From: a virus
Virus record (IMG/VR): IMGVR_UViG_3300009026_000065
Coordinates: 1 to 23,148 of that record
DNA: 23,148 bases
Strand: one strand, 5' to 3'
Of this stretch, positions 1,504 through 22,282 are shown in pieces; positions within the stretch are counted from its first letter, which is position 1, and each line of letters opens with the position of its first letter. Below the pieces are notes generated by a model. That model ran no database searches, was not told the DNA's origin, and saw only the letters and a list, made by a program, of their open reading frames with translations. The translations under genes and the position numbers were made by a program.

Positions 1504-1504
1504 A

Positions 1505-1720: not shown

Positions 1721-1721
1721 A

Positions 1722-2258: not shown

Positions 2259-2291
2259 CGTTTTAAATCCTTTGTTTAAGTTTTAATTTAT

Positions 2292-4682: not shown

Positions 4683-4702
4683 GCTTATCCTCGGTATCCC
4701 AT

Positions 4703-5944: not shown

Positions 5945-5953
5945 TAATATTCC

Positions 5954-7405
5954 TTATTTAAATAATGCTTTAAATTCTGACGTCATTTCAGCAGTAAAGT
6001 TTGGAGCTGCCCTGAAATTACCCTTATATCTTAACACAATATGTGCTATTTGTACAGTGCCAATCATCAAAGTAAACTTAAGATTTGCAGCACCGGCACC
6101 AGGATCGTATGCTTGTGTAGCGCCTGGAGTTAAAATCATTTTAGCATCACCTTTACTAAATAGATCGTCTATTAGAGATGAAGAAGATTCGATGTCCTTA
6201 TATTCACCTGCCTCAACAACAACTCCTTTACGAGCTCCGTAATCACCAACACCAGTAACAAGCGCAAAGTCAAAGTTAACTTTCTTTAATTCTTTTAGAT
6301 CTGATTTAAAAATTAATTGGATTAACTGATTAGCAATTAGATCACTATTATCATTAATGGTTTTAGCCATAGTTTTAAATAATGTTTTCTTACCTTTAAG
6401 TACTCTATTGACTAGATCATTCGGTATTCTTTGGATATATTGCTTCCAATTTTTAGAAGTCGGTCTGCTTTTCTTTAGCTCTTTTTGCATTTCAGGCGAT
6501 AGAATTTTAAGCCTTTGTGCTACCTTAATGACATGAACATAGAATGCTCCGGCATCAGCATCAATTTGTGTTCTTAATTTATCAAACTTTCTATCAGCTA
6601 GAAGAGTGGTGAATGCTTTATTAATAAGAGTTGGATCACCTTCAGTAGATCTTCTCTTTTTCTTCAATGAAATACCACAGTAATTTGAACCTTTCTTAAT
6701 AATAAAATCAGAAGAGTTAAAGTCTTTCATTCCATATTTAGTTCTTTGAAATTCTGTAACGTCGTCGTCCCATGCCTGGCCTGTAAGATAAAGCATATCA
6801 GCACCACCATAACCAGCTTTAATGATAGCATTTGCTGCGGATACAGCTTGACATAGATTAGAATAGTTACCCTCTAATGAATCTACTTGCCCCTGCTTAT
6901 AGCCTTTAACCTTTCGCAGATTACCTTTTACTAATTCAATCAATGCATCCATTTCATCTGAGTTAGTAATGTTGTGTGCTCTAGGGAATAAACATAGAGC
7001 TGCAGTCATTAATTCATGTGGATCATCACCTAATGCACTTCGGCCACCTAATGGTCTAAGGTTAACATATACATATTTTTCTAAATCTTTATGGCCAAAA
7101 GCGTAGTCTTTTTCTTTACGAGCGGCGGGAACTTTATCCATCATTAGTTCTAAATCTGGATGTGCGTCAATGATATCTCTTGCAAGACCTGCAAACTTTT
7201 CACGATCTTTGTCAGGTGCTCTTTGACTAACGCCTAGTTTTCTTCCACTGTTTTTTCCAGGTCGTACATCTACTTCAATTTCTGTATTGATTGAGCCGAT
7301 CTCATCGTCAATCTTAGAAAGAACAGACAATGCAAATGTGGTATCACTACCACTGTATTGCAAATCGTCTAAATCTTCAGGTAAAAAAGTTTTAAAGCCG
7401 CGCAT
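5954..7405 (-). CDS. Large putative internal head protein, possible PD-(D/E)XK-type nuclease
   Basis: The 483-residue product starts MRGFKTFLPED, with a predicted gp21-type cut LPE|D at residues 8-10. In the centre is SSDFIIKKGSNYCGISLKKK (231-250). Its spacing, an Asp at 233 then a strand ending in S-L-K248, is like the core of PD-(D/E)XK nucleases, with Ser in place of the second acid; E131 could be the upstream helix acid. This is a weak motif match. The rest is not recognised. It is the first gene behind the TATAAATA late promoter at 7439-7446, 34 bases before its ATG, and leads the series of nine genes with capsid-targeting-like N-termini. It would be among the largest packaged proteins of such a phage. 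Confidence 0.78.
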   Translation of the reverse strand: MRGFKTFLPEDLDDLQYSGSDTTFALSVLSKIDDEIGSINTEIEVDVRPGKNSGRKLGVSQRAPDKDREKFAGLARDIIDAHPDLELMMDKVPAARKEKDYAFGHKDLEKYVYVNLRPLGGRSALGDDPHELMTAALCLFPRAHNITNSDEMDALIELVKGNLRKVKGYKQGQVDSLEGNYSNLCQAVSAANAIIKAGYGGADMLYLTGQAWDDDVTEFQRTKYGMKDFNSSDFIIKKGSNYCGISLKKKRRSTEGDPTLINKAFTTLLADRKFDKLRTQIDADAGAFYVHVIKVAQRLKILSPEMQKELKKSRPTSKNWKQYIQRIPNDLVNRVLKGKKTLFKTMAKTINDNSDLIANQLIQLIFKSDLKELKKVNFDFALVTGVGDYGARKGVVVEAGEYKDIESSSSLIDDLFSKGDAKMILTPGATQAYDPGAGAANLKFTLMIGTVQIAHIVLRYKGNFRAAPNFTAEMTSEFKALFK

Positions 7406-7438
7406 TCTAAGTCCCTTACAAATAAGTTATTATTAATC

Positions 7439-7446
7439 TATTTATA
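7439..7446 (-). promoter_or_regulatory. T4-type late promoter (TATAAATA)
   Basis: A perfect TATAAATA lies on the minus strand, with the expected start about 10 bases further on and the first ATG (7405) 34 bases away. It sits at the junction between small early-type genes and the internal-head-protein series and overlaps the stop codon of the upstream mini-gene. In T4 this octamer alone specifies late transcription with gp55, gp33 and the sliding clamp. Confidence 0.75.
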
Positions 7447-7603
7447 CTTTTTTGAAACTAAACTCTACGGTATATCCTTTTTGTTTAAATTGATTGTATG
7501 ATTCCCATGCAGTTTTCTTAGAATCATAAAGGCATTGGGCGATTGTGGTATCGCCCTTGGTAACTTTAACTATCCAACTATCGAGCAGCATGGACATATA
7601 CAT
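7442..7603 (-). CDS. Small unrecognised phage protein (about 53 residues)
   Basis: A short frame encodes MYMSMLLDSWIVKVTKGDTT, then IAQCLYDSKKTAWESYNQFK and a tail GYTVEFSFKKV. Three in-frame ATGs (7603, 7597, 7591) are possible. The first has a GAAAG stretch at suitable distance, so I chose it with reserve. The strand-helix-strand pattern is that of a small alpha/beta protein and the codon use looks coding. It overlaps the upstream gene by up to 26 bases. Function unknown. Confidence 0.6.
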   Translation of the reverse strand: MYMSMLLDSWIVKVTKGDTTIAQCLYDSKKTAWESYNQFKQKGYTVEFSFKKV

Positions 7604-7892
7604 CGATTCTTTCAGCGTGTCTTAGTGGAAGACATGAATCATAAGCTCTTGGACTACGACCATCAGCAATAGCAGCTGCTCTGCGTGGACCGCGTGGCAT
7701 TAAGGAAACACGATATTTAGGTGTAACATCTTTCCAATCATCATAACCATGCTCACAGCGATATTGATTCATTGTATCAGTTTGCTTAGCCATTTTATTA
7801 ACAGCTTTAATTGAATTTCTCAACAGTTCAATCTGTTGCATATCAGTAGCCGAATTTACATCAGCTGTAAAAATAAAAGAATTAGTTCTCAT
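7578..7892 (-). CDS. Small unrecognised phage protein
   Basis: I take the ATG at 7892 as start (MRTNSFIFTADVNS), not the upstream in-frame TTG at 7898. The product has 104 residues. Its first half is helical (DMQQIELLRNSIKAVNKMAK). Its second half is arginine-rich with strands (KYRVSLMPRGPRRAAA, then RHAERIDVYVHAAR). No family recognised. It overlaps the preceding gene by 11 bases and the following mini-gene by about 26, which indicates coupling within the operon started by the promoter at 8415-8443. Confidence 0.65.
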   Translation of the reverse strand: MRTNSFIFTADVNSATDMQQIELLRNSIKAVNKMAKQTDTMNQYRCEHGYDDWKDVTPKYRVSLMPRGPRRAAAIADGRSPRAYDSCLPLRHAERIDVYVHAAR

Positions 7893-8046
7893 AATCAATA
7901 CCTATATCACTTCCAACATTATTTTGATACCAGAATGATCTGGCTTCGTATTCATCACCGCCGAATAGATTAGAACACTCGAGGATAAACTCCTCGAGGC
8001 TCATAGTTTCAACTGAATCAAATAAAACGTCCTTTAGTTTACTCAT
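7882..8046 (-). CDS. Small acidic unrecognised phage protein
   Basis: The likely start is the ATG at 8046, giving MSKLKDVLFDSVETMSLEEF and 54 residues, because GGGGA lies about 8 bases upstream; a longer frame from 8064 would overlap the upstream gene. The protein is acidic, ends DIGIDYEN and has no recognised domain. A perfect 8-base inverted repeat (7978-7985 with 7991-7998) falls inside the codons for SLEEFILE and could fold in the mRNA. Confidence 0.6.
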   Translation of the reverse strand: MSKLKDVLFDSVETMSLEEFILECSNLFGGDEYEARSFWYQNNVGSDIGIDYEN

Positions 8047-8048
8047 AA

Positions 8049-8381
8049 TTAAATCCCCGTCCATCTAACATCTTCTTCGTTGTAATTAAAGATGTTACCT
8101 CTAGCAAAGTTAGTAGCTGGTTTGTTGTAACCAGCAGCCATCAGCATATCACCAATTTGAAATGGTGAATTAGTTTTGTTATCGATTTTGGTTTTAGGGG
8201 ATTTTTTGACGATGAATCCAGCTACCGAAGATCGGTCGCCACTTCTTCTTATAAGTTTGATATAGTTGCGACCTTCTTCAAAGGTGTAATGATCGCTATG
8301 AATTGTATGCTCAAAACGATCATGTAGCTGCTTTTCCATAATGGAGATAAGCTCTTGTGTCTTTTCAATTAAGTCTTTCAT
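8049..8381 (-). CDS. Conserved phage protein of unknown function
   Basis: The 110-residue product has a helical N-terminus (LIEKTQELISIMEKQLHDRF). It is followed by a compact domain with GFIVKKSPKTKI, FQIGDMLMAAGYNKPATNFA and RGNIF, ending VRWTGI. I remember the pattern GDxLxAA...PAxNxARGN...WTG from small proteins of T4-like marine phages, without a known role. It is the first gene behind the early promoter at 8415-8443, so an early host-takeover or regulatory function would fit, but that is inference. Confidence 0.72.
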   Translation of the reverse strand: MKDLIEKTQELISIMEKQLHDRFEHTIHSDHYTFEEGRNYIKLIRRSGDRSSVAGFIVKKSPKTKIDNKTNSPFQIGDMLMAAGYNKPATNFARGNIFNYNEEDVRWTGI

Positions 8382-8414
8382 AATGTAAATATCCTTTGAT
8401 TAATTTATGGTACT

Positions 8415-8443
8415 ATTATATCAACATATACGGACTTTGTACA
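8415..8443 (-). promoter_or_regulatory. Early promoter, TGTACA-N17-TATAAT
   Basis: On the minus strand TGTACA (8443-8438) is followed after 17 bases by TATAAT (8420-8415), with TGA directly before the -10 box as an extended -10. It points at the gene starting at 8381. The same arrangement recurs at four other operon starts in the window. Confidence 0.82.
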
Positions 8444-8450
8444 GGGCAAC

Positions 8451-8466
8451 AAGAGACTAATCTCTT
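8451..8466 (-). terminator. Hairpin between operons (weak terminator candidate)
   Basis: AAGAGA and TCTCTT form a 6-base stem with a 4-base loop directly upstream of the early promoter and just after the stop of the small membrane protein at 8477. There is no clear U run, so termination is only a possibility. Confidence 0.35.
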
Positions 8467-8476
8467 AAATTTGGTC

Positions 8477-8647
8477 TCAGCTTGGATCTTCAGATGCTAC
8501 CGTGGTATAGATTCCATATAGTAAACCAGCCCAAGCTAGTAAGTTTGCAATACCACCAAATAAAATAACTGAACCACAGATGATCATAAGTGATGCACCG
8601 TCTAAAGTAGTTCTTTCACCGCTACGTTCTTTTAACCATTTTAACAT
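8477..8647 (-). CDS. Small membrane protein (56 residues)
   Basis: A frame in the gap before the helicase operon end encodes MLKWLKERSGERTTLDGASL, then a hydrophobic stretch of about 25 residues (MIICGSVILFGGIANLLAWA and following) and an acidic end. This predicts one or two membrane passes with a basic cytoplasmic N-terminus. A strong AGGAG ribosome binding site lies 8 bases before the ATG. I recall similar MLKWLKERxGERTTLDGA proteins from T4-like marine phages, without known role. It follows gp41 by 9 bases and belongs to the uvsX-gp41 transcript. Confidence 0.75.
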   Translation of the reverse strand: MLKWLKERSGERTTLDGASLMIICGSVILFGGIANLLAWAGLLYGIYTTVASEDPS

Positions 8648-8656
8648 AATATTCTC

Positions 8657-10048
8657 CTAGATTTTAAATTCAGCAAACGTGTCTTTATTCTCATTGTTAC
8701 CCCACGTTGCTATTGGTTTGTCTGCCGCAGGATCCGATACAAGATCCTGTTGGGCAGACTCTTCTGCATCATATAATTTCATGCGGGAGCGATCAATACC
8801 GACTACGAATCTTTTGTACTTGGTAGGATCGTTATATCGGTTCTTTAGCTGTTTTACCATGATCTGGCCAAGTTCTTCAAGTTCCTCTGTAGATATAAGA
8901 GCGAACATTAAGTCTGCCGTAGCTGGTAAACCAAAAGATTCCGATGTATCTTCAAGTCCAACGTCAGTGTTACCAAAACCAGAACGTGTTGTCTGAGTAG
9001 CTGACATAATTGGAACATTGAACTCAACAGCAAGGCCTCGTAATTCTTCCGCGATAGCTTTGATGTAAGTGTAACTATTTATACTGCCACCCATAGCCTT
9101 CATGCGACTTGAGGCGCAGATGTTTAGGTAATCAATATAAATCATATCTGGTTTAAAGTTCTTCTTCATTTTAAGTTCGTTCAGAAGTGCTCTAAAGTGA
9201 CCAGTATGTGCTGAGCCAGTTGGATATTCTTTGACGATTAGCTTACCAATACTTGCTTTAGCAATAGCAGCAATCTTGTCTTTGAATACTTTTTCTGGCA
9301 CTCGTTCGAGTTGTTCAATAGGTAGATCCATTAGGTTAGCATCAATACGCTCAGCGATACGTTCTTCAGCCATTTCCATAGTAATGTATAGAACATTCTT
9401 ACCTTGCTGTAGAATCGAAGCTGCACAATGACACATAAACAAAGATTTACCAACACCAGTACCAGCCAAAGCGATATTCAGTGTTTTATTGGGTAACCCA
9501 CCTTTTGTAATTTTATTGAAGTAATCCAAGTCAAACGGTATACGATCTTCCTTTTTATTGTAAAATTCAAATCGTTCCGCTGAGTTGTCAATGTAATCAT
9601 GACCAATAGCTTGATCAAAGGAAACACCGAGGGCTTCAGATAGAATCTCTGGAATAGCACCATCGGTTTTTTCTTTCTCGTTACCATCAATAATTTGAAT
9701 TGATTCCATGATCGCGTTATAGACAGCACGATCACGGCACCATTTCTCAGACTCTTTAATTAGATACTCAGTATCGACATCAGTTTTCACAGCAATTTGA
9801 TCTATCAGCTGATTAGCACTATTGAGTATTTCATCAGGTGCACTGATCTTACCTAGCTCAAGCTGTAAAACCTTTGATGTCGGAAGCTTATTCGTTTGTT
9901 GAACAAACTTCACGATCATGTCAAATACGGTCTTATGAGTACTTTCAAAATACTCAGGCTTAATGTAAGGTATTACTCTACGACAAAATTCTTCATTATT
10001 CAGTAGGTGATTCAGAATGTGTGTCGGTAGTTGGTTCGATATTTCCAA
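8657..10048 (-). CDS. 41: Replicative DNA helicase, T4 gp41 type (DnaB family)
   Basis: The 463-residue protein is the ring helicase that unwinds DNA at the phage fork. It aligns by eye with T4 gp41 over its whole length. The N-terminal helical domain (residues 9-110) contains YIKPEYFES. The RecA-like domain has Walker A GTGVGKS (196-202), the MEMAEERIAERIDANLMDLP segment after it, Walker B IYIDYLNI (303-310), and TKGG before the core. The start is a TTG at 10048 with a well placed AGAGG; no suitable ATG lies nearby. It overlaps the preceding gene by 53 bases. Its primase partner is not a recognisable gp61 in this window. Confidence 0.95.
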   Translation of the reverse strand: MEISNQLPTHILNHLLNNEEFCRRVIPYIKPEYFESTHKTVFDMIVKFVQQTNKLPTSKVLQLELGKISAPDEILNSANQLIDQIAVKTDVDTEYLIKESEKWCRDRAVYNAIMESIQIIDGNEKEKTDGAIPEILSEALGVSFDQAIGHDYIDNSAERFEFYNKKEDRIPFDLDYFNKITKGGLPNKTLNIALAGTGVGKSLFMCHCAASILQQGKNVLYITMEMAEERIAERIDANLMDLPIEQLERVPEKVFKDKIAAIAKASIGKLIVKEYPTGSAHTGHFRALLNELKMKKNFKPDMIYIDYLNICASSRMKAMGGSINSYTYIKAIAEELRGLAVEFNVPIMSATQTTRSGFGNTDVGLEDTSESFGLPATADLMFALISTEELEELGQIMVKQLKNRYNDPTKYKRFVVGIDRSRMKLYDAEESAQQDLVSDPAADKPIATWGNNENKDTFAEFKI

Positions 10049-10349: not shown

Positions 10350-11409
10350 CGCGCGCCTCTTCTTCAATTACTTCGTCAAGATCAATCTCTAACATTGGCT
10401 TATGGCCAATAGAATAGTAAGCTTTTAAGAACTCTTTAAAGTTAGTAGTTTCAAAGATTGGTTCCCAGAACTCAGCTGTTAGCGTATCCTTTTCGCGATA
10501 CTTCTGATCCATCTGCTCACCTGTATTTTGGTCTACTTTAGCATACCAACCCATACTTGGTTTAGTAACATAACCACCGGCTAATCCAACTTCTAGTAAG
10601 CCAGAGTATTGCTCGATGCCACCGTCCCACGATACTGTAATGGGTACTTTAGATTTTTCTTTTACAAAGCGTGATTTTTCTACGTTGATCACAAAGTTAT
10701 AGCCTTTGACTTCCTTGCCTTTCTTAACTTGTTGACGGCCAAGAATCCAGATGTTATCCGCACTATAGTAAATACCAGTACCACCAGATACGATAGCCTT
10801 AGGGAATAATCCAATCTCTTGATATGTATGATTGACTGCAAGCAATGGAATATTTCTCATTGTTAGATATGGTGTTACCATTCTAAACAAGCCTTTAAGT
10901 GCTTTAGCTCGAGACATATCTGCTACTGATTTCTCATCCTTAGCATCTTGCAATTCTTTCTTAGAAGCAAGGTTACCAATAGAATCGATTACGATAATGA
11001 CTTTGTCTTTACGTTCAATTTCTTCAAGTTGGTTTACAAGATCAAACTTGAGTTGCTCAACGTCGACAATTGGTGTATGCAATACACGATTAGTATCAAT
11101 GCCGAATGATTCGAAGTAAGATTGTGGTGAACCAAACTCTGAATCATAGAATAACAATACCGCGTCGTCATGCTCTTTAAGATATGCACCTGCCATCAAC
11201 AAAGCAAACGAAGTCTTAAAGTGTTTACTTGGACCAGCAAGAACTGTAAGACCTGAGGTTAAACCACCATCGACATCGCCAGATAGCGCGATATTGATCA
11301 TTGGTACATCAGTCTTTACCATATCTTTTTCTGTAAAGAATACTGAGTTTTTAAGTATTGCTGTACCCTTAACTCTACTATTCTTTTTTAATTTATCCAT
11401 TACGGACAT
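10342..11409 (-). CDS. uvsX: UvsX, RecA-like recombinase
   Basis: The 355-residue product aligns by eye with T4 UvsX. Shared features are FFTEKDMVKTDVPMINIALSG near the N-terminus, Walker A GPSKHFKTS (59-67), VLLFYDSEFGSP (84-95), Walker B VIIVIDSIGNLASKKE (137-152), the AVNHTYQE segment, and VEKSRFVKEKSK. The enzyme coats single-stranded DNA and drives strand exchange in recombination-dependent replication and repair. It is somewhat shorter than T4 UvsX, lacking much of the acidic tail. The start ATG overlaps the stop of the phage bS21 gene (TAATG), so recombinase synthesis is coupled to the ribosomal-protein gene. Confidence 0.96.
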   Translation of the reverse strand: MSVMDKLKKNSRVKGTAILKNSVFFTEKDMVKTDVPMINIALSGDVDGGLTSGLTVLAGPSKHFKTSFALLMAGAYLKEHDDAVLLFYDSEFGSPQSYFESFGIDTNRVLHTPIVDVEQLKFDLVNQLEEIERKDKVIIVIDSIGNLASKKELQDAKDEKSVADMSRAKALKGLFRMVTPYLTMRNIPLLAVNHTYQEIGLFPKAIVSGGTGIYYSADNIWILGRQQVKKGKEVKGYNFVINVEKSRFVKEKSKVPITVSWDGGIEQYSGLLEVGLAGGYVTKPSMGWYAKVDQNTGEQMDQKYREKDTLTAEFWEPIFETTNFKEFLKAYYSIGHKPMLEIDLDEVIEEEARGA

Positions 11410-11651
11410 TATGATCTACTCCTCGGTTGTTCCCAACCAGTTTGTGCTAGTTGTCTTTCTTTCTTACGCCATCTAATGATGGATTCTGCTTTCTTTCTTT
11501 TCTTCTTCGAAGTTGGTTTTTCATAGAACTCTTTTTCTTTTGCTTTTTGCAAAGTACCAGCTCGTTCTACAGACTTCTTGAATTTTCTCATAGCCACTTC
11601 AAATGGCATTTCTTTTTTCTTGCCTTTGGCTGTTAAGTCTACGCTTGGCAT
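11409..11651 (-). CDS. rpsU: Phage-encoded ribosomal protein bS21
   Basis: The 80-residue basic protein has the bS21 signature: MPFEVAMRKFKKSVERAG (the E-x-a-l-RFKR-vekaG pattern) followed by EFYEKPTSKKKRKKAES. Bacterial bS21 is about 70 residues and sits on the 30S platform next to the anti-Shine-Dalgarno region. A phage copy could replace the host protein and favour phage initiation sites. An N-terminal extension (MPSVDLTAKGKKKE) and a C-terminal basic tail exceed the core. The gene stands first behind the early promoter at 11678-11706, in the same transcript as uvsX and gp41, with AGGAG before the ATG. Confidence 0.9.
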   Translation of the reverse strand: MPSVDLTAKGKKKEMPFEVAMRKFKKSVERAGTLQKAKEKEFYEKPTSKKKRKKAESIIRWRKKERQLAQTGWEQPRSRS

Positions 11652-11677: not shown

Positions 11678-11706
11678 ATTATATCACAGTTTCACTCGAT
11701 TGTACA
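11678..11706 (-). promoter_or_regulatory. Early promoter, TGTACA-N17-TATAAT, embedded in the end of the upstream gene
   Basis: TGTACA (11706-11701) and TATAAT (11683-11678) are 17 bases apart with TGA before the -10 box. The whole promoter overlaps the last codons of the UDP-glucose-dehydrogenase gene, whose TAA stop (11681-11679) is part of the -10 box. It drives bS21, uvsX and gp41. Confidence 0.85.
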
Positions 11707-12524
11707 TGGTTAAATGAGATATTTTGCTCTTTTTCTCTTTCATCTCGTTCGTACTGTGATCTGTATCCGTTGTTGATTTCTATGGCTTTAGCCAATAGGG
11801 TAAGTTTATCGCTGAACTTAGAAAAGGCGAGAGTATCTTTAGGGAAGCATGCTCCACCATATCCTTGTTTTCCATCAAACCCTGGAACTTTAGTATGTGA
11901 AATACTAACACGATCATCAGCACCTACTGCTTTAATTACCTTATTGAAGTTTACGTTACCATGTGCGTTACATGCGTCATATAGCTGGTTAAAGAAAGTT
12001 ACTTTAGTTGCTAGGAAAGAATTAATAGCATACTTTACGAAACTTGCTTCTGCCTTACTTACATTGAATGATGGACATGGAGTACACAAACTATACTCTT
12101 GGTAATATCTTTCTAATAGTTCACATTGCTCTTCTTCGCCGCCAAAGATATGGAACTCTGGATTTACAAACTGTTCGCATGCAGATCGTTCGGTTAGAAA
12201 CTCTGGATTGTATACGACATTTGTTTGTGAATACTTGTCAATTGTCGATGGAGTAATAGTCGATTTAATCACGACTAAACCAGATACATCAGATAAATCT
12301 GCCATTACCTCATCAAGAATAGCAGTGTTAATATCACCATCATCTTGCATAGGTGTAGGAACACAGATAAACGTAAGATCTGGATTCCAATTAGCTAATG
12401 CTTTCACATCTTCAGGTGTTGATCCATAATTAGGGTCTAGGATTTTCTTTTCTACTACTGGATTGCTAAATCCATAATCTACTGCTTTGCCAACGAAACC
12501 GTGGCCGATAACTGCTACTTTCAT
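11679..12524 (-). CDS. UDP-glucose/GDP-mannose dehydrogenase family protein, short form
   Basis: Starting at the ATG at 12524 (MKVAVIGHGFVGKAV, with GGAGG upstream; the open frame extends further but without support) the product has 281 residues. It has the NAD-binding GxGFVG (7-12), the ICVPTPM strand, YNPEFLTER (105-113) and the catalytic-cysteine motif GGACFPKD with C226. These make it a four-electron nucleotide-sugar dehydrogenase, most likely UDP-glucose to UDP-glucuronate. Typical Ugd has 390-440 residues; the C-terminal nucleotide-sugar-binding domain is missing, so the substrate is uncertain. It ends the seven-gene operon with a glycosyltransferase and dCMP hydroxymethylase, which suggests it makes a sugar donor for DNA modification. 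Confidence 0.88.
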   Translation of the reverse strand: MKVAVIGHGFVGKAVDYGFSNPVVEKKILDPNYGSTPEDVKALANWNPDLTFICVPTPMQDDGDINTAILDEVMADLSDVSGLVVIKSTITPSTIDKYSQTNVVYNPEFLTERSACEQFVNPEFHIFGGEEEQCELLERYYQEYSLCTPCPSFNVSKAEASFVKYAINSFLATKVTFFNQLYDACNAHGNVNFNKVIKAVGADDRVSISHTKVPGFDGKQGYGGACFPKDTLAFSKFSDKLTLLAKAIEINNGYRSQYERDEREKEQNISFNHVQSSETVI

Positions 12525-12525
12525 T

Positions 12526-13275
12526 TTAGTCCTCCAATATATGATGTTGTGGTTGCCATCCATGACTTAATAGCACCGTTGGGTTTGCACATGTATTTTC
12601 TCTCTCACCTGTTACCGCTTTAACTGGTAAATTGTTTCCAGGCCAGATTTTGTCAGCCATTTCTTTTACTGTAACCGGTTGTCCATTGCCGACATCGATT
12701 GCCTTTTCTGGTATCTTATCATAGTTATCTACACATAAAGCGATAGCTAAGCAAACGTCGTCAACATGAGTCCAATCCCTAGTATGCTCAGTAATGTAAG
12801 TTAATTTTGAATCTCGCTTCTGTAACATATCGTATAGCATATCCGTTCTACTATTTGGACCATAGACTGTATGGAATCTTAGTCCAATAGATCCATCAGG
12901 AGCTAAAGCCTCCATGGCGTACTTAGACGTCGCGTAAGGCGATAACCACCACTCGTATACTGATGATGATGACGCATATACTATAGGAACATTGTATTTT
13001 TTACACGACTCGAATAAATGCTTTGATGCTACAACATTTGTTTCCCAATATTCGTCAGGAATCTCGTGTGATAATCTAACACCTGCTAAAGCTGCAAGGT
13101 GTACTACCATATCATATTCACTTAAATCTATTCCTTTAGATTCGCGAATGTCTCCATTGAACTCTTCAATATCGTAGTCATCTTTATAAAGTTCTAAAAA
13201 TCTTGATGCTATAAATCCTTTTCGGCCCAACCAAAGGCATTTAAAATTTGTTCCAGTTAATAATATTTTTTTCAT
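12526..13275 (-). CDS. NAD-dependent sugar-nucleotide epimerase/dehydratase (extended SDR)
   Basis: The 249-residue protein has the extended short-chain-dehydrogenase layout: GFIASRF, the acidic strand end FNGDIRE, VVHLAALAGV (58-67), the active-site pair S-S-V-Y with Y114-x-x-x-K118 (YATSK), GLRFHTVYGPNSR, and DWTHVDDVC. It would act on a UDP-sugar as epimerase, decarboxylase or dehydratase. The neighbouring dehydrogenase makes UDP-glucuronate its natural input, giving for example UDP-xylose, UDP-arabinose or UDP-galacturonate. The glycine-rich loop is odd: KILLTG is followed by about nine extra residues before GRKGFIAS. It overlaps the methyltransferase-like gene by 4 bases and is followed by ugd after one base. 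Confidence 0.88.
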   Translation of the reverse strand: MKKILLTGTNFKCLWLGRKGFIASRFLELYKDDYDIEEFNGDIRESKGIDLSEYDMVVHLAALAGVRLSHEIPDEYWETNVVASKHLFESCKKYNVPIVYASSSSVYEWWLSPYATSKYAMEALAPDGSIGLRFHTVYGPNSRTDMLYDMLQKRDSKLTYITEHTRDWTHVDDVCLAIALCVDNYDKIPEKAIDVGNGQPVTVKEMADKIWPGNNLPVKAVTGERENTCANPTVLLSHGWQPQHHILED

Positions 13276-14489
13276 AGAAAGTTCTCCAAGCTGTTTTCTG
13301 TTCGTTCGTAATCATATTTTTGTGATAAATTGTTTTGGAATAAGTATTTAGTATCGATCAAATCCCTTTGTTTATTTAGACAAGCTTGAACCTCTAGTGC
13401 CATATCTTTTGCAGTATAGAATGGAACGTTCTGGCAAATGTGATTATAGTTTTTCATTGGATCCACAACTTCAAGATCTGCAGGTAGACCCATAATAGCT
13501 TTACCTTCAGCAATTGAAAGATATCTATCTTCAACCGGATGCGCCACAACTTTAGGTAGATGAACCACGTATGCGCCAATATAGTTTACTGGAATGATTG
13601 TACCACGAAGCATAATGCCACCGCCTGATTCTAGCTTTTTATGCTTGCGTCTAGCCTTTGCAGCTTCTCGTTCAAACTGTGGGAATTGATCCATCCACTC
13701 TGCAATAGTGTTATGCTTAATTCCCATCTTAAGTAATCTAGATTCTACTGTTACTGATTTGTCTTCGTGAGCAACTGAGGCAGAATAGTCAGCATGAGTC
13801 ATTCCGTTATTGACAACCTCTAGCATATAGCGATAATAAGCATCGTCTTTACTTGGAGTTTTCTTATTTAAAATCTCATGTTGGAACGAGGTATCTGCAT
13901 TAAGAATTAACTCTTGAATAGTTGGACGTTCTTTCTTAATATAGTTAAACAGTGGAACACTATCGTTAAACTCGTCTTTTTTCCAGAAGAAAAAGAAAGT
14001 ACGCTTACGGTATTGTGGGTTGCCGTGAAGCAAGCTTTTAGTTAGAAAGATAGAAAAATTATAACCATGCTCTTGACCAAGGTTGTAAAGTTTTTCTCTC
14101 ATGAATCCACCAATCTTACCAGCTAGGCCTGGTGCGTTCTCACCCCATAGTACCTTTGGCTTAACTACTTTTAGTACGTACTCAGAGGATTTTTCCATCC
14201 ATTGATTGTTTTGGTTTTCTTCACCGTGTGAATTGTGGTAAGTGCTTAAACCAGCACAAGGGCAAACTGAAGAAACAACATCAACGTTCTCCATCGTAAC
14301 ACCATCAGGCAATTCATCAAGAACATGATAGGGAATGTCATGCCCTTTGTTCTTATAATGCTTAATTAAATGTTGCTCATTGTCCATAAATCCAGAATAA
14401 GTCATTAAGTATTCTGGAGTCTTACCATACGCTTCGTCTGAAGCTAATATTTCACCACCAATTAGTGGTACAATTCCTGCGTGTCTCAT
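13272..14489 (-). CDS. Divergent C5-cytosine DNA methyltransferase-like protein
   Basis: The 405-residue product has the C5-methyltransferase motif series in order: motif IV as VCPCAGLS (75-82, C78 the likely nucleophile position), motif VI as GENAPGL (116-122) and motif VIII as QYRKRTFFFF (159-168). The usual FAGIGG motif I is replaced by GIVPLIGGE (5-13), so the cofactor site is altered. The C-terminal part contains the family-like LSIAEGKAIMGLP. The protein ends SLENFL, similar to the polymerase and glycosyltransferase ends. It may methylate or otherwise modify cytosines in phage DNA, or act on 5-hydroxymethylcytosine. Start and stop each overlap a neighbour by 4 bases. Confidence 0.85.
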   Translation of the reverse strand: MRHAGIVPLIGGEILASDEAYGKTPEYLMTYSGFMDNEQHLIKHYKNKGHDIPYHVLDELPDGVTMENVDVVSSVCPCAGLSTYHNSHGEENQNNQWMEKSSEYVLKVVKPKVLWGENAPGLAGKIGGFMREKLYNLGQEHGYNFSIFLTKSLLHGNPQYRKRTFFFFWKKDEFNDSVPLFNYIKKERPTIQELILNADTSFQHEILNKKTPSKDDAYYRYMLEVVNNGMTHADYSASVAHEDKSVTVESRLLKMGIKHNTIAEWMDQFPQFEREAAKARRKHKKLESGGGIMLRGTIIPVNYIGAYVVHLPKVVAHPVEDRYLSIAEGKAIMGLPADLEVVDPMKNYNHICQNVPFYTAKDMALEVQACLNKQRDLIDTKYLFQNNLSQKYDYERTENSLENFL

Positions 14490-15319
14490 CCGAAAAAACC
14501 CTCCAAGGATATCTCTTCTTTCTTTTTAATTGCATCCTTATAAGCTTTTGCCCATTGGATATGACATGTTATTCGCTCTTGGCCTTTCCACGGACCATTT
14601 GCGAGAGTCTTTGATTTTAGCTTAACGTAGTCTGGATACATTTCAGCTAGTTGAGTATGAACTTGATTGCTCAACTCAATTGTTCTATATTCTGAACAGC
14701 CACCAGTTGCGTTAGTATCTGATATCGATACTCTATAACGAGTTGTGATTCTATTAGCAAATCCTTGAGTGAGTAACTGTAGATTAGCATGGAAATCTTG
14801 TGAGGTTGGTAACTTATCCCATACAATGTTTCTTGGTAGATTCTTAGAATCAAAGTATGAGTTAGTCATAATACGCACGTTATTCTGTTGAGGCCAATAT
14901 TTAAGATCTGGTACTACCCACGATGTAGAAAAGCCACCGTGATAGATTTGTTCATCATCACACCAACGATTGAAAGTCTCAAATGCATCATCAAACTCAG
15001 CGTCAGACATATCTCGTGTTTCCCATTTGGTATCAAGATGTTCTGGTGCTGGACCTTTGTACTTAAAATATTCCATATCGTCATCAAGCACCATATGACG
15101 TGTACCATAGAACGTATCCCATATCCATTGCCTGGTTGGTGATAATCCTTTGATTTCTGGTGGTAAGACTAATACCTTACTTCCATAAAGTGCTTTCATT
15201 TGTGCAGCTTCGTGTGGTTGAACAATAAAGCTGACGCGTTTTTGCCATTTCTCTGGTAGGTTATTATAAGTCTTTTGCTTGTTGATTCTACCTAAAGTTG
15301 GTATGATTAAATGTTCCAT
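14486..15319 (-). CDS. GT-A-type glycosyltransferase, probably acting on modified cytosine in DNA (TAGT-like)
   Basis: The 277-residue protein begins MEHLIIPTLGRINKQKTYNN, the N-terminal strand of a GT-A fold. PTRQW follows at 61-65, then MVLDDDMEYF with DDD at 79-81 as the metal/nucleotide-sugar site. This pattern fits the TET/JBP-associated phage glycosyltransferases (TAGT) as I remember them. The operon also encodes dCMP hydroxymethylase, so the acceptor is probably 5-hydroxymethylcytosine in DNA, and the two sugar-nucleotide enzymes may supply the donor. The last seven residues SLEGFFG nearly copy the end of the phage polymerase (SLEDFFG), suggesting clamp binding. It overlaps the next gene by 4 bases. 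Confidence 0.85.
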   Translation of the reverse strand: MEHLIIPTLGRINKQKTYNNLPEKWQKRVSFIVQPHEAAQMKALYGSKVLVLPPEIKGLSPTRQWIWDTFYGTRHMVLDDDMEYFKYKGPAPEHLDTKWETRDMSDAEFDDAFETFNRWCDDEQIYHGGFSTSWVVPDLKYWPQQNNVRIMTNSYFDSKNLPRNIVWDKLPTSQDFHANLQLLTQGFANRITTRYRVSISDTNATGGCSEYRTIELSNQVHTQLAEMYPDYVKLKSKTLANGPWKGQERITCHIQWAKAYKDAIKKKEEISLEGFFG

Positions 15320-15321
15320 AA

Positions 15322-15798
15322 TTATGCAATAAAGTCGTAAATGACTCCGGCCTCCATAAATAATTGTTTAGTTAATTCTGTAGATTTGATCCATTTTTCT
15401 GGTGTCGCTTCGTCTATAGCTGTTGTAACTACTCGCTTAACGCCTACTTGGATAATACCCTTGGCGCACTCTGAACAAACTGGCAAACCGTGGATATACA
15501 TTGTAGAACCGTCTAGCGACGTTCCATTGTAGGTAGCATTATATATACAGTTCATTTCAGCGTGAACTACACGTTCGTATTTGCTTTCCTTATTACTATA
15601 TAGTACTGCAGAATCATTGATCTTTCTAGGAAAACCATTATAGCCTTGAGCCAATACTTGCCCTTTTGAACCTACAGCAATTGCACCTACTTTTTTAGAT
15701 GGATCTTTTGACCATGCTGCAATATGGCCAGCAAGATTTAGATATCGCTTATCCCATCGGTAATGTTTGCTTACGCCCCAATCATAAAATTCGCTCAT
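15322..15798 (-). CDS. cd: Deoxycytidylate (dCMP) deaminase
   Basis: The 158-residue product has the zinc site of the family: HAE at 79-81 (general acid E81) and PVCSEC at 106-111. KVGAIAVG and GYNGFPRKI are the substrate-region signatures. It converts dCMP to dUMP, feeding dTMP synthesis and setting the balance between dTTP and hydroxymethyl-dCTP. It lies directly after gp42 (4-base overlap), which competes for the same substrate dCMP. T4 has the same enzyme (cd) in its nucleotide-precursor complex. Two bases separate it from the glycosyltransferase. Confidence 0.94.
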   Translation of the reverse strand: MSEFYDWGVSKHYRWDKRYLNLAGHIAAWSKDPSKKVGAIAVGSKGQVLAQGYNGFPRKINDSAVLYSNKESKYERVVHAEMNCIYNATYNGTSLDGSTMYIHGLPVCSECAKGIIQVGVKRVVTTAIDEATPEKWIKSTELTKQLFMEAGVIYDFIA

Positions 15799-16466
15799 AG
15801 TTTCACCAAGTCAAAGTGTCTGTCATAGACATGTAAGTTTTGTACTTGCCAAATAATCTGTCCTGGTTTGACATATGTACATTTATTTAGATCATCAGCT
15901 AATTGACACTGCACGTGTCGCTGCCACGCGTAATCATTGCGATAACCAAAGATTACATCGTTAGATCTCATTTGAACTACACAATCTAGCTTACCATCTC
16001 TTATATAGTAGGTCACAGAGTTAGTACAAATGAAGTCATTCTTGCCATTCTCATTGTAATCGGTCCATATAGACGGACGCTGATACACCATCGATGCGCG
16101 ACGAGAGTCTGGGTTTTTGCATAGCTCATCAAGAACGTTTTGGTATTGATTACCATTACCTTTTGAATGGATTAGATAGCCATAGTTAGAATTAATCTCA
16201 CCGTGTCGATTGCCAGTCATCTGCCAAGCCTGCGGTGGATCACGATCTACGTAGATATCATTGATATTAGTAGATTGGCTATCGTACCAATCCAACTCTG
16301 CTTTAATGTACTCTTCGTTAGGAGTACCAAAGATAGCTGGTTCGTCTGCGTAAAAAGATGCACCGATCAATTCAATAGTTTTACCACCATTACGATCAGT
16401 AGTAAAGTTTTCATTCTCTAGTTCATTGCGAAAGTAGGTGCGGATTTGATCAATTTCTAAGGTCAT
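15795..16466 (-). CDS. 42: dCMP hydroxymethylase (T4 gp42 type)
   Basis: The 223-residue protein aligns almost without gaps to T4 gp42. Shared runs are KTIELIGASFYADEPAIFG (29-47), HGEINSNYGY (88-97), NPDSRRASMVYQRPS (118-132), DFICTNSVTYYIRDGKL (144-160) and MRSNDVIFGYRNDYAWQ (166-182). C147 corresponds to the catalytic cysteine. D178 corresponds to T4 Asp179, where thymidylate synthases have Asn; this Asp selects dCMP over dUMP. The enzyme makes 5-hydroxymethyl-dCMP with methylene-tetrahydrofolate, so the phage DNA probably contains hydroxymethylcytosine. The C-terminus is about 20 residues shorter than in T4. Its start shares a base with the upstream stop. Confidence 0.96.
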   Translation of the reverse strand: MTLEIDQIRTYFRNELENENFTTDRNGGKTIELIGASFYADEPAIFGTPNEEYIKAELDWYDSQSTNINDIYVDRDPPQAWQMTGNRHGEINSNYGYLIHSKGNGNQYQNVLDELCKNPDSRRASMVYQRPSIWTDYNENGKNDFICTNSVTYYIRDGKLDCVVQMRSNDVIFGYRNDYAWQRHVQCQLADDLNKCTYVKPGQIIWQVQNLHVYDRHFDLVKL

Positions 16467-16795
16467 TACTTGCTCCGGTTAAGAAAATCTGTATCGTCAG
16501 ACTGGCCTTCAATGCCACCACGAGCATAAGCAACTAAGAACGATGCATAGTTAATAAGATCTTTACCAGAGTCTTCAATAGATTCAAAGTTTGGATTGTA
16601 CTCAGGGTCTGATTCCATAGCTTCAATTACGCTATATAGACGTAGGGTTTTAGCTTGAATAATATCAAGAATAGAAGCAACGCCGCGGGGGTAATAATCG
16701 GATTGCTTTATTCTGGAGTTTGGATTCTGGTAATCATTAGATTTTTTAGTTTGAAGTTCTGCACATTCTTGCAAGACTTTTAAAGATTCTTTCAT
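16466..16795 (-). CDS. Nucleotide-modification-associated domain 1 (NMAD1/DUF1599)-like protein
   Basis: The 109-residue helical protein has the pattern KKSNDYQNPNSR (about 17-28), RGVASILDIIQAKTLRLYSV and IEDSGKDLINYASFLVAYAR. This is how I remember NMAD1/DUF1599: K-x-x-DYg, then a KxxRL helix, then a DxxxDLxxYa helix. The family is related to MazG-type all-alpha NTP pyrophosphohydrolases and recurs beside modified-base genes in phages. It could hydrolyse an unwanted dNTP such as dCTP or support the modification pathway. It is the first gene after the early promoter at 16822-16850 and precedes gp42 with a TAATG overlap, so its role is tied to the operon. Confidence 0.82.
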   Translation of the reverse strand: MKESLKVLQECAELQTKKSNDYQNPNSRIKQSDYYPRGVASILDIIQAKTLRLYSVIEAMESDPEYNPNFESIEDSGKDLINYASFLVAYARGGIEGQSDDTDFLNRSK

Positions 16796-16821
16796 AGGAA
16801 TACTCCATAATTTAAAGGTAT

Positions 16822-16850
16822 ATTATACAACAATTAAGACTAAATGTACA
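16822..16850 (-). promoter_or_regulatory. Early promoter, TGTACA-N17-TATAAT, of the DNA-modification operon
   Basis: TGTACA (16850-16845) and TATAAT (16827-16822) are 17 bases apart. Unlike the other four it lacks the TGA before the -10 box. The first gene begins at 16795, so the leader is short. Confidence 0.82.
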
Positions 16851-16863
16851 GGGGTTTTTTAAA

Positions 16864-17121
16864 TTAATTATGTACCGCCAAGATATGAGCCATATCGACA
16901 ATTGCTGCAGCTTTATTGTCTACATCCACTGCCATTGCTTCTGGCCACTTTAAAAATACTCTGTCACCAGCTTTAAGATGAGTTGCCTCAGGACCTACTG
17001 CTAACACCAATCCAGGTTTTGCTGCTTTACTTACAGCACCTTGCAAAATAATACCACCTGCTGAGGTACTTTCTTGAGTTGCTTCTGTTACTAAAACTTT
17101 ACTTCCAATCATTTCTAACAT
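16864..17121 (-). CDS. GroES-like co-chaperonin (functional counterpart of T4 gp31)
   Basis: The 85-residue product has the GroES layout: strand SKVLVTEA, a mobile loop ESTSAGGIILQGAVSK with the chaperonin-binding GGIIL motif, GLVLAVGPE, and LKAGDRVFLKWPEA (the g-D-x-V-x-f element). It should cap a host GroEL ring and assist folding of phage proteins such as the capsid protein. T4 gp31 does this with a diverged mobile loop; here the loop is much closer to bacterial GroES. It is slightly shorter than GroES (about 95). AGGAAAAAG precedes the ATG. A second in-frame ATG lies three codons in. hsp20 elsewhere in the window adds a second phage chaperone. Confidence 0.88.
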   Translation of the reverse strand: MLEMIGSKVLVTEATQESTSAGGIILQGAVSKAAKPGLVLAVGPEATHLKAGDRVFLKWPEAMAVDVDNKAAAIVDMAHILAVHN

Positions 17122-17356: not shown

Positions 17357-18269
17357 GCGTATTTCTAAAGCAAAATTCAATTGCGCGTTCTGCTTCTTTG
17401 ACCATATCGCGTTTACCATACCAGCTACCAGTTTGATTATCAAGATCTTGGCATATCCAAGCAATCTCTCGTGCAGTAATAGGATACCCTCGTTGCATTG
17501 CATTACCAGCTGTTGATACCATGATCTTATACATCTGTAAATACCAACCGCCGCCAGTAATTGCCTTATAGTCTTCCACTTGCTTTTTGTTTACAAATGG
17601 ACAATCGGCAAAGCCAGTCCAACTATAGTTTGTGTTATTGAGCTGGTTCTTCTTATGCTCTAGCAATCCTTTCTTAATAGCTTCTGGTAGTCTATCAAAG
17701 AATGAATCTGATTTAACCACGTAGCGATGCTTTTCCATTAATACTTTTGGATCCATCAACTCACCATCATGCGTAAATATAAAGTTATACGCATCTTTGT
17801 ATTTAGATGGCACATAGTACATACGGCTCAGATCTTTAGTTTGTGCGTCAGCAATATCGCCAATCTCTTTATTGAGTGCATGCCAAAAATGCTTGATTCT
17901 ATCAGCCGGTACTTGTTCTGTTAATGGAAATACCAAACGAAACTTTGGATGCTCTTTAGTCGAGCTAGCAGTTGAATAACAAACGTACTTATAGTTAGAA
18001 TACTTATCATGAATATTCTCAATTGATCCTTCATAATCATCAACATCAACAATGCCGAAGCCACCCCAAGCAGTTACGTTAGCGTTTGCTCGGGTGGTTC
18101 CGGTCTTATATGTAGCGGGTGAGATAAGGGGTGCATCAGTCTTCTTCTGATACCTCTCACCGTTTGCTAAACGATATAATACTTTTTCAAAGTCGTCAAA
18201 AGAATCGTAATCCATTCTCTTGACGGTTTTGTTATCATATATGCTATTAAATATCGTTAAAGAGACCAT
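17352..18269 (-). CDS. Archaeo-eukaryotic primase (AEP)-like protein
   Basis: I take the ATG at 18269 (MVSLTIFNSIYDNKTVKR, 305 residues); a GTG lies three codons earlier. Around residue 72 is GIVDVDDYEG (hhhDhD, D75 and D77) as AEP motif I. The run YSTASSTKEHPKFRLVFPL (98-116) resembles the TaSx...prfRlvfpL block of phage and plasmid prim-pol proteins. KDLSRMYYVPSKY (145-157) supplies the third acidic motif. The C-terminal part is helical (WYLQMYKIMVSTAGNAMQRG) and may be a PriCT-like accessory. A primase role next to MazG, polymerase and gp41 genes is reasonable, but catalysis is inferred from weak motifs. It overlaps the MazG-like gene by 23 bases. Confidence 0.75.
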   Translation of the reverse strand: MVSLTIFNSIYDNKTVKRMDYDSFDDFEKVLYRLANGERYQKKTDAPLISPATYKTGTTRANANVTAWGGFGIVDVDDYEGSIENIHDKYSNYKYVCYSTASSTKEHPKFRLVFPLTEQVPADRIKHFWHALNKEIGDIADAQTKDLSRMYYVPSKYKDAYNFIFTHDGELMDPKVLMEKHRYVVKSDSFFDRLPEAIKKGLLEHKKNQLNNTNYSWTGFADCPFVNKKQVEDYKAITGGGWYLQMYKIMVSTAGNAMQRGYPITAREIAWICQDLDNQTGSWYGKRDMVKEAERAIEFCFRNTL

Positions 18270-18648
18270 GGTTGCCACTGTGTGATGGATTTTCCCAACC
18301 TTCAGGCTTTACTAGATCTGGCAAACCGAGTGGATTAGGTCTGCTCTCCTTTACACCAATTACTTTTGCCATGTTTGCTTTATGTACAGCATCCCATGCT
18401 TTATAAGGATCAACCCCGAAAGCATCAAGAGAACCGATTGCAATAACACATACATCAATTAACCCATCGACGATTTCTTCAGCATCACGTGCATCAACTG
18501 CAATTGATGTTTCGTTAGCTTCTTCATAGAGAAACTTTAGACGAAAGTCTAGAAACTCTTTGAGTTTATCAGGGTTATTCTTAACCCATTCATGCACACC
18601 ATACTTGGAATGCATTTCATTTATATCACTTACCCAGTCTTTGCTCAT
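18247..18648 (-). CDS. MazG-like nucleoside triphosphate pyrophosphohydrolase
   Basis: The 133-residue helical protein has the all-alpha NTP-pyrophosphohydrolase metal motif. LYEEANETSIAVDA gives ExxxE, and AEEIVDGLIDVCVIAIGSLD gives ExxD one helix later. The end of the core is AVHKANMAKVIG, as in phage MazG/HisE-like proteins. It cleaves a (d)NTP to the monophosphate and pyrophosphate. In a hydroxymethylcytosine phage a dCTP-destroying enzyme is needed (T4 uses gp56, not seen here), and this protein could fill that role; this is inference. It overlaps the Sm-like gene by 4 bases and the primase-like gene by 23. Confidence 0.85.
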   Translation of the reverse strand: MSKDWVSDINEMHSKYGVHEWVKNNPDKLKEFLDFRLKFLYEEANETSIAVDARDAEEIVDGLIDVCVIAIGSLDAFGVDPYKAWDAVHKANMAKVIGVKESRPNPLGLPDLVKPEGWENPSHSGNHGLFNDI

Positions 18649-21826: not shown

Positions 21827-22282
21827 CTATTCCTGTAGGAATTGTTTCTTCTTTGATGCCCCAGCAGACCCTATTTCGATCTTCCGAGGACGCCTCTCTT
21901 CCGGAACTTCCACTCTGGCATAAACCACAAGTATACCGTTCTCTAGATCAGCACCGTCAATTACGACAAATTCGGAAAGGCGGAAGCTCTTTTCGAATTT
22001 GCGGGATGATATACCCTTGTGAGCATATTCGCGTTTGTCTCCTTCAATCTTACCCCTTACTTTAAGGATACCGTCTTTAACATCAAGACTAACATCTTCT
22101 TCAGTAAATCCCGCAACAGCAAGCTCAATGAGAAATCTTTCATCATCGATTTTTACGATATTGTGGGGTGGGTAGTTATCGTTACCAGTTCTAGCAGAAT
22201 TATGAATTCCCTCTAGCTCATCGAACAATCCTTCGAAGCCAACGAATAATGAACGCGGCACATTTAAAGTATTTCTAACCAT
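21827..22282 (-). CDS. hsp20: Small heat-shock protein, Hsp20/alpha-crystallin family
   Basis: The 151-residue product has a short N-terminal region with FVGFEGLFDEL. The alpha-crystallin domain follows at about 38-138: YPPHNIVKIDDERFLIELAV, the AGFTEEDVSLDVKDGILKVRG strand pair, KFEKSFRLSEFV and ENGILVVYARVEVPEE. The GILVV strand is the family signature, and the tail RKIEI is the IxI-type motif. It holds unfolded proteins in an ATP-independent way. Phage Hsp20 is frequent in T4-like marine phages. A perfect late promoter sits 64 bases before the ATG and AGGAGG directly before it, so it is likely made late, during capsid assembly. Confidence 0.95.
   Translation of the reverse strand: MVRNTLNVPRSLFVGFEGLFDELEGIHNSARTGNDNYPPHNIVKIDDERFLIELAVAGFTEEDVSLDVKDGILKVRGKIEGDKREYAHKGISSRKFEKSFRLSEFVVIDGADLENGILVVYARVEVPEERRPRKIEIGSAGASKKKQFLQE

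Follow-up and report, generated by a model that had tools for sequence, protein, structure and literature searches.

A seven-gene operon of a T4-like phage that very probably makes and glycosylates hydroxymethylcytosine, with a candidate uronic acid donor pathway and a C5-methyltransferase-like companion

Phages T4 and T6 carry glucosylated 5-hydroxymethylcytosine (hmC), made by the deoxycytidine monophosphate (dCMP) hydroxymethylase gp42 together with alpha- or beta-glucosyltransferases or with TAGT, a glycosyltransferase encoded next to gp42 in T6 and, in T6-like phages, considered the likely agent of the second glucosylation (PMC13390438). RB69 and other Mosigvirus members, which contain arabinosyl-5-hydroxycytosine, place, as does the phage described here, a dCMP-modifying enzyme of the thymidylate synthase (TS) family and sugar genes between the DNA polymerase and uvsX; their base is a 5-hydroxy rather than a hydroxymethyl derivative, and the sugar genes encode an isomerase, a kinase and a nucleoside triphosphate (NTP) transferase (PMC13390438, PMC6024577). 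The nearest precedent that we found for a phage uridine diphosphate (UDP)-glucose dehydrogenase (Ugd) feeding DNA modification is that of SP-15, proposed to supply a uronic acid, but there the modified base is uracil, the sugar is a phospho-linked glucuronolactone and the gene cluster is a different one (PMC5977210). Here we describe an operon in virus record G000, a 23,148-base stretch (the window) of a T4-like, probably marine phage, which in a megablast search against 50,697 phage records gave six partial matches at 71-78% identity in the helicase region, to cyanophages and one marine virus. Between 16795 and 11679, seven consecutive open reading frames (ORFs) of the minus strand (Table 1) encode an NMAD1-like small protein, a gp42-type hydroxymethylase (HM), a dCMP deaminase (dCD), a TAGT-family glycosyltransferase (GT), a C5-methyltransferase-like protein (MT), a short-chain dehydrogenase/reductase (SDR) and Ugd.

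This operon very probably makes hmC and attaches a sugar to it. From the gene content we consider it highly probable that the phage DNA carries glycosylated hmC and, granted that base, rather probable that the sugar is a uronic acid; the explanation as a whole, in which hmC DNA is made and decorated with an acidic sugar, is the one that we favor, with some reserve. HM and dCD, whose steps have sequence support, would respectively convert dCMP to 5-hydroxymethyl-dCMP and drain dCMP towards deoxyuridine monophosphate. The dCMP may be supplied by hydrolysis of deoxycytidine triphosphate by the NMAD1-like protein or the product of an ORF at 18247-18648, and 5-hydroxymethyl-dCMP would be raised to the triphosphate by a kinase located nowhere in the records tried. 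Ugd would oxidize UDP-glucose to UDP-glucuronate, SDR would epimerize this at C4 to UDP-galacturonate, and GT, whose glycosylation of hmC in DNA after replication also has sequence support through the role of its family, would take the uronic acid donor and thereby leave an acidic sugar on the phage cytosines. MT would be a conserved companion of hmC clusters with a rebuilt cofactor site, and we incline more to a role on the hmC DNA of the phage than to that of a plain S-adenosylmethionine (SAM)-dependent methylase. Relative to T4 and T6, with which HM shares its active-site residues, the operon brings its own Ugd and epimerase-like SDR, plus MT, which matches nine phage records and no Escherichia phage. 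All the component kinds are known; their combination (hmC, TAGT, Ugd, epimerase-like SDR and altered MT) was not found in the literature searched, outside which lay subscription papers and most preprints, and MT may be the more novel element. Neither galacturonate on cytosine nor this MT family turned up in the same literature, which is not proof of their absence.

The operon is genuine and beyond chance, as a specific promoter word stands at both of its ends and its gene order is kept in related loci. Matches in Pfam, PDB and PHROG confirm that the seven genes lie between the two promoters where the original prediction had placed them. Every junction is an overlap or gap of at most four bases: a 1-base overlap between the NMAD1-like gene and HM, 4-base overlaps at HM/dCD, GT/MT and MT/SDR, a 2-base gap between dCD and GT, and a 1-base gap between SDR and Ugd if the latter starts at 12524, where TTGGAGGACTAAA stands upstream of an ATG (the mechanical ORF start is 12563). 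The initial description of 4-base overlaps or gaps of at most 2 bases thus holds for most junctions, the 1-base overlap being the exception. The window holds four copies of the word TGTACA-N16..18-TATAAT (0.02 expected from shuffles), all on the minus strand: the two of Table 1 and those at 21566-21538 and 8443-8415. A general sigma-70 scan found 14 sites against 20.8 in shuffles; hence, only the specific word is significant, and in its N17 form it is probably the early promoter of the phage. By hand count, it directly precedes the first gene in 13 of the 15 near loci covering that place (not in L013 and L015) and recurs at the end of ugd in all 12 that cover the latter. A search for the same gene order in relatives, which had been proposed with the original prediction, recovered all seven genes in that order in 11 of 16 related viral-contig loci, the other five being cut by contig ends; GT in these 16 is 83-100% identical to that of the window, and several are near copies of one another. 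In the 83-85% group about 0.3-0.5 kb with small ORFs is inserted between dCD and GT. The proposed sharing of one transcript by the genes for the sugar nucleotide, the base and its glycosylation is therefore upheld, with the order conserved.

HM matches the T4 dCMP hydroxymethylase over its whole length (Table 1) and is 54% identical to T6 gp42 as against 28% to RB69 ORF048c, a protein of the kind that acts as 5-hydroxy-dCMP synthase in Mosigvirus (PMC13390438). When aligned to T6, its Glu57, Ser93, Tyr95, Asp144, Cys147 and Asp178 correspond to T4 Glu60, Ser94, Tyr96, Asp145, Cys148 and Asp179, with described roles for Glu60, Ser94 and Asp145 of T4 (PMC6400193). RB69 ORF048c shows Phe, Thr, Tyr and Glu at T4 positions 60, 94, 96 and 145, three of the four differing from the T4 type, and retains the equivalents of Cys147 and Asp178. 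Since the 5-hydroxycytosine enzyme carries both of the latter, they fail to discriminate, contrary to the diagnostic value first given to them; it is the retained equivalents of Glu60, Ser94 and Asp145, along with the higher identity to T6, that lead us to expect hydroxymethyl- rather than hydroxycytosine. Judged by these residues, HM is a T4-type dCMP hydroxymethylase, and gp42-type synthesis of the nucleotide, as originally foreseen, holds. That the operon instead encodes a 5-hydroxycytosine pathway as in RB69, whose enzyme is homologous and has the same Cys and Asp, is on the same residues and identities very improbable. We also rejected an RB69-type arabinose pathway, as HM is of the hydroxymethyl type and the operon has no isomerase or NTP-transferase/kinase genes by Pfam. 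Likewise, the comparison first drawn with RB69, as a phage arabinosylating hmC by similar sugar genes, does not stand: its base is 5-hydroxycytosine, and the genes proposed for its arabinose are of different types.

GT scores 56.5 bits against the TAGT family cut-off of 27.5 and matches the PHROG family of beta-glucosyl-HMC-alpha-glucosyltransferases (Table 1). Its D79-D81 is invariant in the eight aligned sequences, and phage homologues are 23-29% identical to it among the matches listed (40 of 588 records); a profile search of PDB, with E-values allowed up to 1, gave no match. The glycosyltransferase anticipated in the operon is a TAGT, a family to which the decoration of hmC is assigned in phages like T6.

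The evidence for an acidic sugar comes from the last two genes. Ugd has the N-terminal and central domains of its family and the GGxCFPKD motif with the catalytic cysteine, Cys226 in GYGGACFPKD being invariant in all seven aligned sequences. The best PDB matches of SDR are MoeE5 (6kv9, 8e-16), 5u4q (7e-15; deposited as a deoxythymidine diphosphate (dTDP)-glucose 4,6-dehydratase, which we take to be a UDP-glucuronate epimerase) and the Bacillus cereus epimerase (6zl6, 6e-12). MoeE5 is listed as a UDP-glucuronate 4-epimerase (PMC7984243). In the B. cereus enzyme, Thr126, Ser127, Ser128 and the main chain of Thr178 hold the carboxylate of the substrate, Arg185 holds that of the product, and decarboxylases have Glu in place of Ser128 (PMC7984243, PMC12338863). 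SDR shares these carboxylate-binding and the catalytic residues: Thr126, Ser127, Ser128, Tyr149, Lys153, Thr178 and Arg185 become Ser103 (a Ser for the Thr), Ser104, Ser105, Tyr114, Lys118, Thr136 and Arg143, invariant in 10 of 10 clade sequences, a count that excludes the distant short phage SDRs of L020, L021 and L023. A role as UDP-glucuronate decarboxylase is disfavored, the position of the decarboxylase Glu being Ser105 in all ten. As SDR is epimerase-like and not decarboxylase-like, galacturonate is favored over xylose or arabinose; of the three UDP-sugars initially envisaged, UDP-galacturonate is most likely the product of the two enzymes. From the gene order, GT would then use UDP-galacturonate. 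That SDR decarboxylates UDP-glucuronate so as to place a pentose, xylose or arabinose, on the DNA appears quite improbable: Ugd would feed both routes and variants of the B. cereus epimerase can act as primitive UDP-xylose synthases (PMC12338863), but besides Ser105 the epimerase residues Arg143 and Thr136 are kept, and the candidate arabinose genes of RB69 are of other kinds (PMC13390438). As regards the nucleotide loop of SDR, the window phage and its near-identical copies have five extra residues (13204-13257, TGTNFKCLWLGRKGFIAS) relative to TGTQGYRKGFIGN in L006.

The pairing of ugd and SDR recurs in other hmC loci. For HM and MT we examined, by short peptide patterns, the best 80 loci of at least 565 and at least 589 matches, respectively, in order of their resemblance to the window; many of the contigs nearly duplicate one another, and cluster counts at 90% identity accompany locus counts. 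With at least 6 kb downstream, 16 of 51 HM loci have ugd, and all 16 have SDR (11 of 34 clusters), whereas among HM loci lacking ugd (7-kb cut) 9 of 32 have SDR. Nine HM and ugd loci of other lineages (L148, L149, L156, L164, L165, L166, L171, L173 and L179) encode a full-length SDR with RFFTVYGPxGRPDM, in which the 128 position is, by eye, Cys in five, Ala in two, Ser in two and Glu in none. The L179 protein matches 5u4q at 2e-61, the B. cereus epimerase at 3e-41 and MoeE5 at 9e-35, as opposed to 1e-25 for a UDP-glucuronic acid decarboxylase, the E-values of the epimerase-like chains thus being 9 to 36 orders of magnitude better.

Several observations pull against an acidic sugar or against the scheme as a whole. 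Ugd (281 aa) is without its C-terminal domain, which gave no Pfam match at E up to 1; the missing piece is presumably the UDP-binding domain PF03720. Equally short ugd ORFs, of 268-319 aa, occur in 44 of 45 loci, the remaining one being contig-cut, and the phage enzyme may be expected to work like Ugd though it is not a canonical member. SDR is about 80 residues shorter than the B. cereus epimerase (249 vs 327), its dinucleotide loop is altered (TGTNFKCLWLGRKGFIAS) relative to the standard GxxGxxG, and its structural model is weak (pLDDT 71) and gives a hint only: MoeE5 provides the top two Foldseek matches, with further epimerases and dehydratases at most two orders of magnitude behind. The short SDRs of L020, L021 and L023 retain Arg143 without having both Ser104 and Ser105; in L156, L164 and L166, three of the nine recurrence loci, ugd and SDR stand apart; and in 35 of the 51 HM loci no ugd is seen in the locus. 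The named relatives of GT are glucosyltransferases, and the donor is not readable from its sequence. Finally, no relative of T4 gp1, the 5-hydroxymethyl-dCMP kinase, was found in eight records (five of them long, possibly incomplete relatives of the window), in a search that had no positive control. In the same eight, gp56 was matched only in phage XG4 and in none of the five relatives. Given these results, calling the pathway complete, as was done at first, is too strong.

Part of these points would fit an alternative in which the sugar on hmC is glucose from host UDP-glucose, and the uronic acid from Ugd and SDR serves the host envelope, the tail or another glycan, the two genes merely sharing the transcript. 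Besides the glucosyltransferase relatives and the many HM loci without ugd, it could draw on phage C48C1, which keeps Ugd and SDR between primase and uvsX, as in the window, and has no match for HM, TAGT or a C5-methyltransferase. Relatives with Ugd and SDR but without gp42 and the glycosyltransferase had been named beforehand as a finding that would speak against the original prediction. However, C48C1 also has a TET/JBP oxygenase, the only such match among the records tried, encoded at 49583-53030 (6584-10031 of L322) consecutively with a protein of no assigned kind and a UDP-galactopyranose mutase; it could possibly make a glycosylated base by another route, e.g. glycosylated hydroxymethyluracil. 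Because of this oxygenase, C48C1 neither refutes nor proves the link of the sugar genes to DNA. Moreover, the ugd and SDR genes directly follow GT and MT behind a single promoter, in an order kept in every related locus that is not cut, and the pair occurs in about a third of the HM clusters (11 of 34). Hence, we regard glucose as the unlikely option and continue to prefer a uronic acid. A TET route in the hmC phages themselves was considered and is unsupported, as no TET/JBP match was found in the long hmC relatives L035 and L040, nor in L304, L308, L309 and L018.

MT presents a different problem. Its model (pLDDT 90.5) resembles M.HhaI (Z 24.6, 3.3 A over 296) and, equally well, CmoX (Z 24.0), the 5-carboxymethylcytosine transferase of phage S-B43. 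Like MT, CmoX has the C5-methyltransferase fold and a modified cofactor site, and its gene sits in a cluster for DNA hypermodification, but it uses carboxy-SAM (Cx-SAM) with SPPC and Arg350 (PMC12783734); a CmoX activity was rejected for MT, which has CPCA and Gln353 in the window. Across 50 family members, Cys78, Glu117-Asn118 and the QxRxR residues Gln159, Arg161 and Arg163 are invariant. Together with the M.HhaI-like fold, these would suit an ordinary SAM-dependent C5-methyltransferase acting on unmodified cytosine or host DNA, with the shielding of the phage's own DNA by hmC explaining the link to HM. Nevertheless, motif I is IPLIGG or VPLIGG and departs from FxGxGG: its first Gly is Leu in 50/50 (Gly in 23 of 24 bacterial C5-methyltransferases, controls chosen by their PCQ motif from one bacterial order), and its aromatic is Ile or Val in 50/50 (Phe, Tyr or His in 24/24). 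Similarly, the position of HhaI Asn304 (CmoX Arg350) is Gln in 50/50 and Asn in 20 of the 24 controls, motif X reading CQNV as against GN(A/S)V. The patterns of the near scan cover parts of motifs IV and X, so that the conservation of motif X is in part by selection; motif I was not among them, and was a pattern in the distant scan. A correspondence of MT Asp58 to motif III, noted by eye, is not borne out by the alignment and carries no weight here. With 5hmC, M.MpeI gives weak adducts, and it presumably takes off the hydroxymethyl as formaldehyde (PMC11347137). By analogy, we tentatively propose that MT may be an hmC-directed enzyme, either SAM-independent or with another donor; an ordinary methylase on host or residual cytosine is about as likely, and neither is assigned with any firmness. 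An equally speculative extension would have a widespread phage class with the C5-methyltransferase fold forgo ordinary SAM methylation and act on hmC in DNA via a Cys-C6 adduct, swapping the 5-hydroxymethyl oxygen or stripping the hydroxymethyl at chosen sites, and do so here beside a galacturonate-coating transferase that adds a negative charge per modified cytosine.

What is plainer is the company that MT keeps. The original prediction had named it as an additional enzyme of the operon; far from being peculiar to this phage, it belongs to a large family linked to HM, a profile search for this METHYLTRANSFERASE-like gene giving at least 589 matches in viral contigs. HM occurs in 63 of the 80 best MT loci (the 17 showing none have less upstream sequence) and in every one of the 42 near loci that extend 6.5 kb or more upstream (27/27 clusters); conversely, MT is found in 37 of 51 HM loci (24/34 clusters). 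To say that MT is always with HM would be over-reading: in a distant scan, whose 80 loci include two from another locus set, 26 loci reach 7 kb or more upstream, of which 19 have an HM or TS-family gene and seven have neither. Among ten records tried for distant loci that show no HM, which are or may be fragments, HM is absent from the whole contig in eight; one of these (L309) has a TS-family gene, and the RB69-type enzyme is absent from 8/8 such records, with RB69 itself as positive control. Between dCD and MT the genes vary, comprising TAGT, a DNA alpha-glucosyltransferase (PF11440), GT4-like and GT8 proteins and others of no assigned kind (two such neighbors, c13 and c18, matched nothing in profile searches of PDB with E-values up to 1), as well as a protein like the 5-hydroxymethyldeoxyuridine (5-hmdU) DNA kinase with an inositol-phosphate synthase. 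Phage XG4 has HM, a protein fusing NTP-transferase and phosphotransferase as in RB69 ORF53_52c, two weak glycosyltransferase matches and MT, and in the distant locus L304 sugar-nucleotide-like and weak glycosyltransferase-like genes adjoin MT. In cyanophage S-TIM54, which has no T4-type HM, 2 kb separate MT from a gene of the TS family in which the specificity position is Asp. The link to HM, the varied decorating neighbors and L304 assign MT to clusters for hmC and DNA glycosylation, where its tie to HM is the closest, though exceptions occur.

HM clusters in which a kinase-domain protein, an inositol-phosphate synthase and a protein of no assigned kind precede MT were seen in L042, L049, L059-L061, L063, L068, L069, L074, L077 and L078. 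The matches are to PF18723, the 5-hmdU DNA kinase helical domain (E=2e-11 in L061), PF01658, myo-inositol-1-phosphate synthase (3e-9 in L049), and, for the protein of no assigned kind, phrog_13881 in L059; these clusters possibly make phosphorylated or inositol-bearing hmC. One HM locus, L050, has two tandem MT-family genes (6778-9200), about 28% and 57% identical to the window MT.

As to the remaining genes, dCD fits a T4-like shift of the nucleotide pool. The NMAD1-like label first given to the small protein is weak, its DUF1599 match lying under the cut-off of that family, though two PHROG families match it well (Table 1); it is possibly an NTP pyrophosphatase, and a relative occurs in 33 of the 42 MT loci whose upstream sequence reaches 6.5 kb or more. 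The ORF at 18247-18648 is MazG-like, by eye only.

Table 1. Features of the operon and the promoters at its two ends (window positions)
Feature	Positions	Strand	Matches and remarks
Opening early-type promoter, TGTACA-N17-TATAAT	16822..16850	-	just 5' of the first operon gene
NMAD1-like small protein	16466..16795	-	phrog_1485 3e-12; phrog_18404 'hydrolase' 5e-11; DUF1599 E=0.12
HM, T4 gp42-type dCMP 5-hydroxymethylase	15795..16466	-	Pfam Thymidylat_synt 7e-19; PDB 1b49 E=6e-72
dCD, dCMP deaminase	15322..15798	-	dCMP_cyt_deam_1 PF00383 5e-19; phrog_174 2e-39
GT, TAGT-family glycosyltransferase, presumed DNA hmC glycosyltransferase	14486..15319	-	PF20691 5e-15; phrog_842 4e-38
MT, C5-methyltransferase-like, altered cofactor motifs	13272..14489	-	DNA_methylase PF00145 2e-17
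SDR, short, UDP-glucuronate 4-epimerase-like	12526..13275	-	Pfam Epimerase 3e-21; best PDB matches 6kv9, 5u4q, 6zl6
Ugd, short UDP-glucose 6-dehydrogenase without C-terminal domain	11679..12524	-	UDPG_MGDP_dh PF03721 7e-18 and PF00984
Next promoter, TGTACA-N17-TATAAT	11678..11706	-	within the 3' end of ugd, ahead of a ribosomal S21 gene

Elsewhere in the window, genes for ribosomal protein S21 and a GroES-like protein (Pfam) and an Hsp20-like ORF (by eye) adjoin replication genes (11409-11651, 16864-17121 and 21827-22282). Nine consecutive minus-strand ORFs at 884-7405 share similar short N-termini (MKTFKEHLEG, MLTFKEHIEE, MIPFAQYITEA, MKQFTQIRAE, MKTFKELREK, MIKKFSEFVTEA, MLSFKDHTQL, MKSLKNYLSEA and MRGFKTFLPE), which remind us of what we take to be the cleaved capsid-targeting peptide of the T4 internal proteins.

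If hmC bearing a uronic acid is indeed made by this phage, it would be a new phage base as far as we found, and it bears on whether negative charge on the DNA might help to evade defenses that read glucosyl-hmC. The HM-linked MT family, with its at least 589 matches, means that a C5-methyltransferase-like protein belongs regularly to many hmC systems, and assays can be aimed at it directly. Moreover, the varied neighbors of MT, including alpha-glucosyltransferase, GT4-like and GT8 proteins and the 5-hmdU-kinase-like protein with inositol-phosphate synthase, predict that further novel cytosine modifications may be found in these phages.

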